From: Verrucomicrobiota bacterium
Lineage (GTDB): Bacteria; Verrucomicrobiota; Verrucomicrobiia; Verrucomicrobiales; Akkermansiaceae
Direction of reading: 5' to 3'
DNA: 64,000 nucleotides
NCBI GenBank assembly: GCA_030835305.1
Contig: JAURPJ010000120.1
Span: forward strand, 1 to 64,000
Made by a program: the position numbers and the translations under genes. Shown here in pieces: positions 4,920-25,040 of the stretch (position 1 is its first letter; every line of letters begins with the position of its first letter). A model generated the notes under the pieces. It was not told the origin of the DNA. It made no database searches and saw only the letters and a list, made by a program, of their open reading frames with translations.

Positions 4920-4988
4920 TGCTGCTAGAAGGTTTAGTTGTGGTTAGCCCGTGTTCTTTTGAAAAGCAAGGCCTGTAATTGGCAGGAT

Positions 4989-21611: not shown

Positions 21612-22187
21612 ATGCTCATTGCCTTCAACAAACCCTACGGTGTTCTCAGCCAGTTTAATGCCAACCCCGGGGACGAAGGGCAGCGCACTTTGAAGGAATT
21701 CGACTTCCCGCCGCGGTGCCTTCCCCTCGGACGACTCGACATGGACTCCGAAGGGCTCCTTCTTTTCACAGACAAAAAATCTCTCGAAGATCGCCTTCTC
21801 AATCCCCGCTACGCCCACCGCCGCCGCTACCTCGTCCTTGTGGAGGGAGAGCCCGATGACGCCGCTCTCACCAAACTTCGCAGCGGCACTCTCGTCATCA
21901 AAGGTCACAAGTGCCTCCCCTGCCGGGCCAAATCCCTTAAGCAGGCCCCACCAATTCCCGATCGTGATCCGCCGGTCCGATATCGCAAAAATATCATCGA
22001 TACCTGGCTTCGCCTCGAACTTCGAGAAGGCAAGAACCGCCAGGTTCGTCGCATGACCGCTGCCGTCGGCCACCCCACTCTCCGCCTCCTCCGCGAAGGC
22101 ATCGGCGCCTTCCCCCTCGGCGACCTGCCCGTTGGCGAATGGAAAGAACTCACCCCGGAAGAACGCGCCGACGTCTTTTCCCGTTGA
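21612..22187 (+). CDS. pseudouridine synthase, RsuA/RluE type
   Basis: 191 residues from ATG 21612 (MLIAFNKPYGVLSQF), the usual start for RluE-like proteins that lack the S4 domain. The catalytic Asp lies in LPLGRLDMDSEGLLLFT; the C-terminal motif is ELREGKNRQVRRMTAAVGHP. It isomerises a specific uridine to pseudouridine in rRNA. RluE modifies 23S rRNA in E. coli, but the exact target here is not decidable. Transcription probably starts after the terminator at 21542-21590. Confidence 0.92.
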   Translation: MLIAFNKPYGVLSQFNANPGDEGQRTLKEFDFPPRCLPLGRLDMDSEGLLLFTDKKSLEDRLLNPRYAHRRRYLVLVEGEPDDAALTKLRSGTLVIKGHKCLPCRAKSLKQAPPIPDRDPPVRYRKNIIDTWLRLELREGKNRQVRRMTAAVGHPTLRLLREGIGAFPLGDLPVGEWKELTPEERADVFSR

Positions 22188-22287
22188 GACAAATCACCTG
22201 AAAAGCCGGGGTCCTCTAAAAATCCCCATGGAGGAACATCATCTAACATATCTAAAATTCATTTCATCTTCTCTAATTCCCGATTAG

Positions 22288-22301
22288 TGTTCAATTGAAC
22301 G
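22288..22301 (+). promoter_or_regulatory. candidate LexA (SOS) box
   Basis: TGTTCAATTGAACG contains the perfect 12 bp palindrome GTTCAATTGAAC. It matches 13 of 14 positions of TGTTC-N4-GAACA, the LexA motif I recall being described for Verrucomicrobia (tested on the Verrucomicrobium spinosum recA promoter). The last base abuts the ATG at 22302, so a bound repressor would block transcription or initiation of the repair operon. Only the final position (G instead of A) departs from consensus. Confidence 0.72.
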
Positions 22302-23582
22302 ATGGAACTACAACAAAAACTCGAGATCCTTGCGGACGCCGCCAAATACGATGCTTCGTGCGCCAGCTCCGGTGCCACCCGCAAAAATTCCTCCAGCGGC
22401 AAGGGAGTCGGCTCCACCGGCGGAGCAGGCATTTGCCATTCCTACGCCCCCGACGGCCGCTGTATCTCTCTTCTCAAAGTCCTCCTCACCAACCGCTGCC
22501 TCTACGACTGCCACTACTGCATCAACCGCCGCTCGTCCAACGTCCAACGCGCCGCATTCACCTCCGATGAAGTTGTCAAGCTGACCCTCGACTTTTATAA
22601 GCGGAACTACATCGAAGGCCTCTTCCTCTCCTCAGGCATTATTCGCAGCGCAGACCATACCATGGAGATGGTCATTGAAGTCGCCCGCTCCCTCCGTGAG
22701 GACCACGACTTTCGCGGTTACATTCACCTTAAAACAATCCCCGAAGCCTCGGTCGAACTCATCGAAAAAGCCGGTCAGTTTGCCGACCGAATCTCCATCA
22801 ATATCGAACTCCCCGATGAAGAAAGCCTGAAAACCTTTGCCCCCGAAAAGTCACTTAGGAGAACCCGGATCGCGATGGGGAAGATCCGCCATCGTGTCGA
22901 AAACGCCAAGGAAGTTCGCCGCGAAAAAGGAGGAAAACGTTCCCCGGACTCCCGCTTCGCCACCGGTCAAAGTACGCAAGTTATCGTAGGTGCCGATAGC
23001 TCCACCGACCAAACCTTTCTCAAACGCTCCACCGACCTTTACTCAAACTATCGTCTCCGCCGGATCTACTACTCCGCTTTCAGCCCCATCCCGGAGCCCT
23101 CCTCGATTCTCCCGATCAAGTCGCCCCCGCTCGTTCGCGAGCACCGGCTATACCAGGCCGATTGGCTCATGCGCTTCTACGGTTTTGATGCCACCGAAAT
23201 TGTTTCGGACGATCTTCCAAATCTCGACCTTGATCTCGACCCCAAGCTCTCCTGGGCTCTCCGCAATCGCCACCTCTTCCCCATCGATCTCAATCGCGCC
23301 GACAAGCTCATGCTTTACCGCGTTCCCGGCCTCGGCATTCGTAATGCCGACCGCATCCTCGGCATCCGGCGCTATGGAGCCATCAAAATCCAAGATCTTA
23401 TCCGCCTGCGGGTCTCCCTCAAGAAAGTCCTCCCCTTTATCATCACCGCCGATCACACCCCAAGCACCCGCGAACTTGATCACGAAAACCTCCGCTCTAG
23501 ATTCGCGCCCCCTCCCGAACAAATGGAACTCGCGCTCTCTCCCTCCGACCAAGGATCTCCCCTTGGAAAAGTCATCGATTGA
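22302..23582 (+). CDS. putative DNA modification/repair radical SAM protein
   Basis: A 426-residue radical SAM enzyme of the family that co-occurs with the UdgX/DUF4130 protein. The 4Fe-4S/SAM motif is Cys66-X3-Cys70-X2-Cys73 in TNRCLYDCHYCINRRS. Ahead of it comes a Gly/Ser-rich loop with two more Cys (GAGICHSYAPDGRC). The C-terminal region carries helix-hairpin-helix-like DNA-binding sequence, LYRVPGLGIRNADRILGIRR. Its reaction is unknown; the family name reflects genomic linkage to DNA glycosylase-like proteins. It starts right after a candidate SOS box, and the UdgX fusion gene begins three bases after its stop. Confidence 0.93.
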   Translation: MELQQKLEILADAAKYDASCASSGATRKNSSSGKGVGSTGGAGICHSYAPDGRCISLLKVLLTNRCLYDCHYCINRRSSNVQRAAFTSDEVVKLTLDFYKRNYIEGLFLSSGIIRSADHTMEMVIEVARSLREDHDFRGYIHLKTIPEASVELIEKAGQFADRISINIELPDEESLKTFAPEKSLRRTRIAMGKIRHRVENAKEVRREKGGKRSPDSRFATGQSTQVIVGADSSTDQTFLKRSTDLYSNYRLRRIYYSAFSPIPEPSSILPIKSPPLVREHRLYQADWLMRFYGFDATEIVSDDLPNLDLDLDPKLSWALRNRHLFPIDLNRADKLMLYRVPGLGIRNADRILGIRRYGAIKIQDLIRLRVSLKKVLPFIITADHTPSTRELDHENLRSRFAPPPEQMELALSPSDQGSPLGKVID

Positions 23583-23585
23583 GCC

Positions 23586-25040
23586 ATGCTCACCCTCACT
23601 GTCGAGAACGACTTTGAAGACTGGCGGGAGAAAGCCCGTGCTCTTCTTCTTGCTGGCATTTCACCGGCCAGAATCATCTGGGAAGAGCCCGGCCAGCGCG
23701 GACTTTTTGAGACCGACAGGCCCCTTCCGCCACCGGCGACTGCTCCGGCCCCTAGGGTGTCGCGCGAGTTCCTGTCGCTTGCCGAAACAATCGCCCACCA
23801 CTGCTCTGCCGAGCGCTGGGCCCTGCTCTACCAAACCCTTTGGCGACTCACCTTGGGCGGCGAAAGCAATCTTCTTAAAAGAACGACAGACCCTGACGTT
23901 TCACGCCTGTTTCGTATGCGTAAGGAAATCTCGCGCGACATACATAAGATGCACGCCTTCGTGCGCTTCAAAAAAACCGGTGAAAATTCTAAGACCGGCC
24001 GCGAGCGATTCATGGCGTGGTTCGAACCGGACCACCGTATCATGCCCCTAACCGCGAAATTCTTCCAAAAGCGTTTCACCGGGATGGACTGGGTCATCTT
24101 CACCCCGACCGGTTCCGCTTCCTGGGATGGAAAAAACCTCTGCCACGGCCCGGGCGTTGATAAGGTCGAGGTTCCCGAAGAGAAACTCGATGAACTCTGG
24201 CGGGGTTACTACAAGAGTATCTTCAATCCCGCCCGCCTCAAGGTGAAAGCGATGCAGGCCGAAATGCCCAAGAAATATTGGCACAACCTTCCCGAATCCG
24301 ATCTCATTGAATCGCTCATCTCCGGGAGCCGGCACCGCGTTCAGGGCATGCTCGAAGAGCACCTCCGCCCGACTACCAGCGGAGGAAAAAATCCCTACCT
24401 CAAACATCTTCGCAAGCTCACCTCCCAAGATAGCAACAGCGTCTTTATCCCCGACGATCACATCGGTAAACCTCTTGATGACCTTCGTGAACTGTCAACT
24501 TGCTGCCACGCCTGCCCGCTTCATCAAGCTGCCACCGGAACAGTGTTTGGAGAAGGTCCGGACGATGCCGAAATCATGCTCGTGGGAGAGCAACCCGGCG
24601 ATCAGGAAGATCTTCTCGGCCGTCCCTTCGTCGGTCCGGCCGGACAACTTCTCGATCGTTTCCTCGCCGAGGCCGGAATCGATCGAAAGACGTGCTATGT
24701 CACCAATGCCGTGAAGCACTTTAAATTCACCCTGCGCGGAAAACAGCGACTTCATCAAAGCCCAAATCAGGACGAAATTTCCCGTTGTAAACCGTGGCTC
24801 GTTGGTGAACTCCTCGAAGTCAAACCCCGCACCCTCATCCTTTTTGGTGCTACGGCCGCCCGCTCGCTAATCGATCCAAATTTCAAGATCACCCGGCAAC
24901 GCGGCATTGTCCCGGACACCGGCCTTGCCGAAAAAGTGATCGCCACCGCTCATCCCTCCTATCTGCTCCGACTCCGGGACACTCCGCAGCGAGAAGTCGA
25001 AGAGGCTCTTTTTCTAAAAGATCTCCAACTCGCAAAGTAG
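23586..25040 (+). CDS. DUF4130-UdgX fusion: uracil-DNA-binding/glycosylase-like protein
   Basis: 484 residues in two parts. Residues about 1-250 are the DUF4130 domain linked to radical SAM partners (LRMRKEISRDIHKMHAFVRF-type region near 115-135, then WFEPDHRIMPLTAKFFQKRF). Residues about 295-484 are a UdgX-type family 4 uracil-DNA glycosylase fold: Fe-S Cys in TCCHACP, GEQPGDQEDLLGRPFVGPAG, the UdgX-specific loop KQRLH (Lys386-His390) and the C-terminal ATAHPSYLLRLRD. In characterised UdgX the loop His becomes covalently bonded to the abasic site after uracil removal; His390 is the counterpart. The operon partner is the radical SAM protein. Confidence 0.93.
   Translation: MLTLTVENDFEDWREKARALLLAGISPARIIWEEPGQRGLFETDRPLPPPATAPAPRVSREFLSLAETIAHHCSAERWALLYQTLWRLTLGGESNLLKRTTDPDVSRLFRMRKEISRDIHKMHAFVRFKKTGENSKTGRERFMAWFEPDHRIMPLTAKFFQKRFTGMDWVIFTPTGSASWDGKNLCHGPGVDKVEVPEEKLDELWRGYYKSIFNPARLKVKAMQAEMPKKYWHNLPESDLIESLISGSRHRVQGMLEEHLRPTTSGGKNPYLKHLRKLTSQDSNSVFIPDDHIGKPLDDLRELSTCCHACPLHQAATGTVFGEGPDDAEIMLVGEQPGDQEDLLGRPFVGPAGQLLDRFLAEAGIDRKTCYVTNAVKHFKFTLRGKQRLHQSPNQDEISRCKPWLVGELLEVKPRTLILFGATAARSLIDPNFKITRQRGIVPDTGLAEKVIATAHPSYLLRLRDTPQREVEEALFLKDLQLAK

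Follow-up and report, generated by a model that had tools for sequence, protein, structure and literature searches.

Operon layout and encoded proteins

The locus lies within the window, by which we mean the whole 64,000-nucleotide stretch of DNA that was analysed, and consists of a gene for a radical SAM protein and a gene for a DUF4130-UdgX fusion, preceded by a LexA-like palindrome (Table 1). The first-pass annotation had assigned both genes from the sequence, and profile searches agreed, returning TIGR03916 for the radical SAM protein and then TIGR03915/DUF4130 plus TIGR03914/UdgX within a single protein. The fusion gene starts three bases past the radical SAM stop codon. Upstream, a pseudouridine synthase gene on the same strand ends at 22187; downstream, the neighbouring gene (CNNM/CorC domains) is convergent. 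With 114 intergenic bases upstream and a convergent neighbour downstream, the two genes appear to form one unit that has a control region to itself.

Table 1. Features of the locus, in window positions
Feature	Position	Strand	Basis or remark
Predicted LexA operator TGTTCAATTGAACG	22288..22301	.	9/10 specified bases of TGTTC-N4-GAACA; conserved before orthologues
Intergenic region, pseudouridine synthase gene to operon, 114 bases	22188..22301	+	Presumed promoter location
Radical SAM protein, TIGR03916, 426 aa	22302..23582	+	Profile; CX3CX2C at residues 66-73; presumed helix-hairpin-helix at about 335-360
DUF4130/TIGR03915 (residues 5-237) and UdgX/TIGR03914 (240-482) fusion, 484 aa	23586..25040	+	Profiles

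The radical SAM protein scored 552.4 bits against TIGR03916 (curated cut-off 343.5), a family that we take to be the COG4277 radical SAM/HhH protein. The three cysteines of its CX3CX2C motif, C66, C70 and C73, were invariant among 26 aligned orthologues. The helix-hairpin-helix is presumed from a reading of the residues by eye, not from a profile. A structure model of the protein (mean pLDDT 79) resembled many radical SAM enzymes and favoured none of them. PADLOC gave no match, so a defence role is without support.

The UdgX domain scored 269.8 bits against TIGR03914 (cut-off 189.95) and was close to Mycobacterium smegmatis UdgX (PDB 6AJO and others; 45 % identity, Z 27.1, 194 residues, rmsd 2.2). 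In structure comparisons of the fusion protein, matches to this domain took up the lists, leaving none for the DUF4130 domain. Ten residues of the M. smegmatis protein were studied by mutation according to PMC10776899, namely E52, Q53, D56, D59, F65, N91, K94, R107, H109 and H178, and equivalents of all ten are present here. By alignment, R388, H390 and Q336 are the equivalents of R107, the cross-linking H109 and the motif A residue Q53, whose roles are described in PMC10776899 and PMC10359453. The domain differs from M. smegmatis UdgX in its fusion behind DUF4130, in an R-loop that reads KQRLH instead of KRRIH, and in having HPSY in motif B. Since all ten of the mutation-studied residues are present, covalent capture of abasic DNA by this domain is likely.

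The UdgX part is not a constant feature of such loci. Of 50 loci, 42 had a DUF4130 match after the radical SAM gene, and in only 15 did this match extend well into the UdgX part; the remaining 27 comprised 26 complete ORFs of 270-305 aa without UdgX and one that was cut. In the other eight loci, two of which are cut by contig ends, the sequence that was read gave no DUF4130 match. The conserved core is thus the radical SAM protein plus DUF4130, with UdgX optional at the locus, and we infer that the two core proteins carry out the base reaction.

The candidate operator and its conservation in the order

The palindrome TGTTCAATTGAACG ends where the radical SAM ATG (22302) begins, leaving no gap, just as the first-pass annotation had read it. 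The same annotation counted 13 of 14 positions matching TGTTC-N4-GAACA; this is right if the four N are counted, and corresponds to nine of the ten specified bases. We take TGTTC-N4-GAACA to be the verrucomicrobial LexA motif, and it is present here before lexA in relatives. The site at the operon is like this operator in its arms, its spacing and its placement next to a start codon, and differs in the last base, which is G here and A there. With no gap before the start codon, the palindrome would share bases with the ribosome-binding region or with the transcription start. A search of the control region before the operon for the sigma-70 consensus gave no match.

The quality of the match was compared with chance at three scales. 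No second match had been noticed in the window when it was first read. The window indeed contains no exact TGTTC-N4-GAACA, but four places equal the operon site in quality (4952, 7432, 8607 and 35001), three of them within listed ORFs. The place at 4952-4965, TGTTCTTTTGAAAA, is a one-mismatch site 32 bases before a minus-strand ketoacyl-synthase gene and is probably a chance occurrence. With up to two mismatches, 24 matches were observed in the window vs 28.7 expected from shuffled sequence. In the whole genome, 102 places had at most one mismatch vs 68 for the reversed control pattern, a 1.5-fold difference. Ranking the site with a LexA weight matrix, as the first-pass annotation had proposed, gave an unremarkable result: a matrix built on 24 lexA operators from the order placed it below 33 of the 54 genomic places that were scored (50 among the matches listed and the other four sites in the window), and 25 of those 33 were likewise non-exact. 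The match alone therefore does not exceed chance. A genome search with a sequence-only covariance model of 24 lexA operators returned nothing at E values up to 10, because 14 positions are too few.

Unlike the match alone, the position and the conservation of the site do exceed chance. Of the 112 genomes in the order, 49 had TIGR03916 above cut-off; 48 of these, together with G040, whose gene is partial and scores below it, supplied 49 orthologues. Within 250 bases upstream, TGTTC-N4-GAACA was found at 8/10 or better before 35 of the 49, at 9/10 or better before 23, and exactly before 14, counts that are not independent since the genomes are related. When all 1,024 palindromic half-sites were scored alike, TGTTC came first with its 23 at 9/10 or better, the runner-up reaching 6, and within the radical SAM gene none of the 49 reached 8/10. 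The supposition that the palindrome would be conserved upstream of orthologues was thereby borne out. Eighteen spacers occur among the 23 best sites, 17 of which are found no further than 60 bases from the ATG. No site at 8/10 was present before 14 of the 49 orthologues, six of which lie outside family f3 (see below). In L116, the named relative with the greatest similarity, TGTTCGCATGAACG occupies the position of the operon site, and G092, which is outside the 49-orthologue set, has an operon site at 8/10.

In 7 of 35 cases a further site, matching at 7/10 or better, stood exactly 15 bases from the first, in head-to-tail orientation and separated from it by a single base, while every other distance up to 40 bases accounted for at most two cases. 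Head-to-tail LexA-like pairs 15 bases apart, with one or both members degenerate, were seen at the genome's own recA (L017) and at operons such as L018, L028, L040, L042 and L046.

LexA-like sites before SOS genes and in other bacterial groups

The genome's own lexA (C11) carries TGTTCATCGAAACA, a 9/10 site 9 bases before its ATG, so its promoter shares the motif of the operon. The first-pass annotation had set the motif against both the lexA and the recA promoter of this genome; the lexA promoter agrees, but the recA promoter does so weakly, holding only 8/10 sites. There are three of these, two of them in tandem at the 15-base distance, as counted from a recA start that was chosen by hand. 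At L005 (C43:9044-9057) an exact TGTTCATTAGAACA lies 4 bases before a presumed imuA, which is followed by an imuB-like gene with an IMS domain; the imuA label comes from the position before the IMS-domain gene, the candidate itself having no Pfam match. Because an exact site precedes this pair, an imuA-imuB operon for SOS mutagenesis is probably present in the genome. At both lexA and the presumed imuA the site is close to the start, as in the operon. Eight exact sites exist in the genome (L001-L008). Five of them (L001, L002, L006, L007 and L008) are inside ORFs and probably arose by chance; L003 falls in the gap separating two ORFs, at 200 bases from the start of one, and L004, which overlaps other ORFs, is just before an ORF that looks transposase-like by eye.

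Across the order, lexA promoters had the motif at 9/10 or better in 34 of 44 genomes: 9/9 in f1, the genome's own family, 9/9 in f2, 0/6 in f3 and 16/20 in f4. This set of 44 leaves out G041, G090 and G093, and G062 and G055 gave no lexA match; among the genomes left out, G090 has an exact lexA site, G041 has one at 8/10 in front of a divergent copy, and the copy read in G093 is also divergent. Presence at the operon went together with presence at lexA (each at 8/10 or better): 32 of the 44 genomes had both sites, five the lexA site only, one the operon site only and six had no site at either place (Fisher p = 0.0004, with no correction for relatedness). The operon-only genome, G004, has an exact operon site and no lexA site at 7/10 or better.

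In family f3 the site is missing both before the operon (0/8) and before lexA (0/6). The f3 LexA proteins (L078, L082, L091, L092, L098 and L109) have an altered presumed recognition helix, e.g. AAVDVLRALE vs AAMSHLRALE. In four f3 genomes the DNA just before the operon resembles, by eye, the end of another reading frame. A dyad search upstream of the f3 lexA genes and operons (4-base half-sites, gaps of 0-12) found none common to at least four sequences.

Of the 80 loci found by a scan of named genomes, 77 entered the scoring; the upstream sequence was too short at L131 and L159, and the match in L134 lacked its 5' end. Group labels were taken from the titles of the records. Among named Verrucomicrobiales loci, 10 of 19 had TGTTC-N4-GAACA at 9/10 or better and nine did not reach 9/10; of two further loci of the phylum, that of Chthoniobacteraceae had it exactly and that of Pelagicoccus lacked it. 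In Alphaproteobacteria, TGTTC-N4-GAACA at 9/10 was found before none of 43 orthologues, and GTTC-N7-GTTC, in either orientation, before 41 of them. The latter is the alphaproteobacterial LexA motif according to PMC8565304. As controls, eight other spacings gave 0 to 2 of the 43, three regions within the gene gave 0, and a region further upstream gave 2. CTGT-N8-ACAG, another LexA box, was exact in two of three betaproteobacterial loci and in none of three gammaproteobacterial loci, two of which had it at 7/8. It also occurred in 2 of the 19 Verrucomicrobiales loci, where it overlaps TGTTC-N4-GAACA as an extension of that palindrome. The single locus titled only Proteobacteria had an exact GAAC-N7-GAAC. 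In six Xanthomonadales-type loci none of the LexA boxes scored was present; a LexA1 box is known from Xanthomonas.

Four loci from Luteimonas, Pseudoxanthomonas and Stenotrophomonas (two) (L142, L150, L154 and L162) show by eye a different palindrome, TCTCA-N5-TGAGA, near the radical SAM start. The lexA genes read in three of those Xanthomonadaceae genomes have TTAGTA-type or TGTACAAATGTACA boxes, not this palindrome. Exact copies of it numbered 3, 2 and 7 in three genomes vs 0 for the reversed pattern. The sequence TCTCAAAATTTGAGA is common to the Luteimonas and Pseudoxanthomonas genomes (L205 and L209), its nearest ORF in L209 appearing mraZ-like by eye.

Proposed SOS control, rival readings and earlier reports

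SOS control of the radical SAM/UdgX operon is very likely real, judging from the position of the palindrome and its recurrence. We hold with high confidence that the palindrome is a LexA operator, so that the operon would be repressed by LexA and derepressed upon damage. The predicted events of LexA binding, repression and induction at the operon are as follows. In undamaged cells, LexA would cover the beginning of the radical SAM gene, keeping the two-gene operon repressed. DNA damage would activate RecA and with it the self-cleavage of LexA, upon which the operon would be derepressed along with lexA and the presumed imuA-imuB mutagenesis operon. The operon products would most likely act on damaged or uracil-containing DNA and, where the UdgX domain is present, it would excise uracil and then bond covalently to the abasic site, a step that rests on the conserved residues and on known UdgX chemistry. 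A DNA repair role for the operon is suggested by inference.

If the palindrome were a 13-of-14 match that precedes the gene by coincidence, one would see what the window and genome counts indeed give, that is, similar matches at chance numbers in the window, a 1.5-fold excess over the control genome-wide, and 33 of 54 scored places ranking above the operon site. The recurrence of the motif before orthologues, at the top of 1,024 half-sites, and the TGTTCGCATGAACG at the same place in L116 nevertheless make coincidence extremely improbable. A dyad-binding regulator other than LexA, with a LexA-like site, would better accommodate G004, where a site stands before the operon but not before lexA, as well as the four Xanthomonadaceae operons with the unrelated TCTCA-N5-TGAGA; indeed, because that palindrome stands there, another regulator may hold the operon in Xanthomonadaceae. 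As an account of the present operator this is very unlikely, though, given that the same motif precedes lexA in 34 of 44 genomes, that the two sites are jointly absent in f3, and that the LexA boxes of other classes stand before the operon in Alphaproteobacteria (41/43) and Betaproteobacteria (2/3).

A rival that is compatible with LexA control concerns function only: the products might serve mutagenesis or another damage response, such as nucleotide or RNA modification, rather than the repair of DNA bases. PMC3765255 calls DUF4130 a predicted mutagenesis-related enzyme, and the 26 orthologous operons with a complete 270-305 aa DUF4130 ORF and no UdgX can be read the same way. Set against these are a UdgX domain that keeps all ten mutation-studied residues and the presumed DNA-binding HhH segment seen by eye in the radical SAM protein, and we consider a non-repair function possible but rather unlikely.

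The idea of SOS control for an operon of this type is not new. A 2021 paper states that SOS regulation of a UDG repair system had earlier been reported in Verrucomicrobia and Alphaproteobacteria, and describes a COG1573-COG4277 UDG operon under LexA in Bacteroidetes, citing Erill et al. 2016 for Verrucomicrobia (PMC8565304). The novelty of the idea was for this reason overrated. The present operon is like the COG1573-COG4277 operon in having two genes, a UDG-superfamily protein and the clade's own LexA motif; it is unlike it in coming from a further genome and in its UDG, which is a UdgX joined to the C-terminal side of DUF4130. What is added here are the conservation counts, the finding that UdgX is optional, the tandem spacing and the parallel lack of both sites in f3, for none of which do we claim priority in print. 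Among the papers searched, none has both UdgX and radical SAM. Another radical SAM protein, the spore photoproduct lyase SplB, is linked to DNA damage in several SOS regulons according to PMC8565304 and PMC3765255. The protein described here shares with SplB this tie to DNA damage, and differs in scoring over the TIGR03916 cut-off and in having no SplB model among its profile matches.

More tentatively, and with somewhat more doubt than confidence, the LexA-controlled operon may be one form of an ancient damage-response module of radical SAM protein and DUF4130 that is under SOS control in several phyla, its LexA operator having been exchanged between TGTTC-N4-GAACA, GTTC-N7-GTTC and CTGT-N8-ACAG. 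Such a module might perform a base reaction that is novel for DNA repair; the cross-linking UdgX would then be an optional partner, serving to mark the product or to protect it.

The joint absence of the operator and of the lexA autoregulation site in f3 offers a natural case of regulon rewiring. That differing SOS operators stand before the operon in Verrucomicrobiales and Alphaproteobacteria suggests that the operon is needed when DNA is damaged. To our knowledge, few radical SAM enzymes have been proven to act in DNA repair, and the SOS link gives the radical SAM reaction a testable setting, in the form of damage-induced expression and a deletion phenotype.
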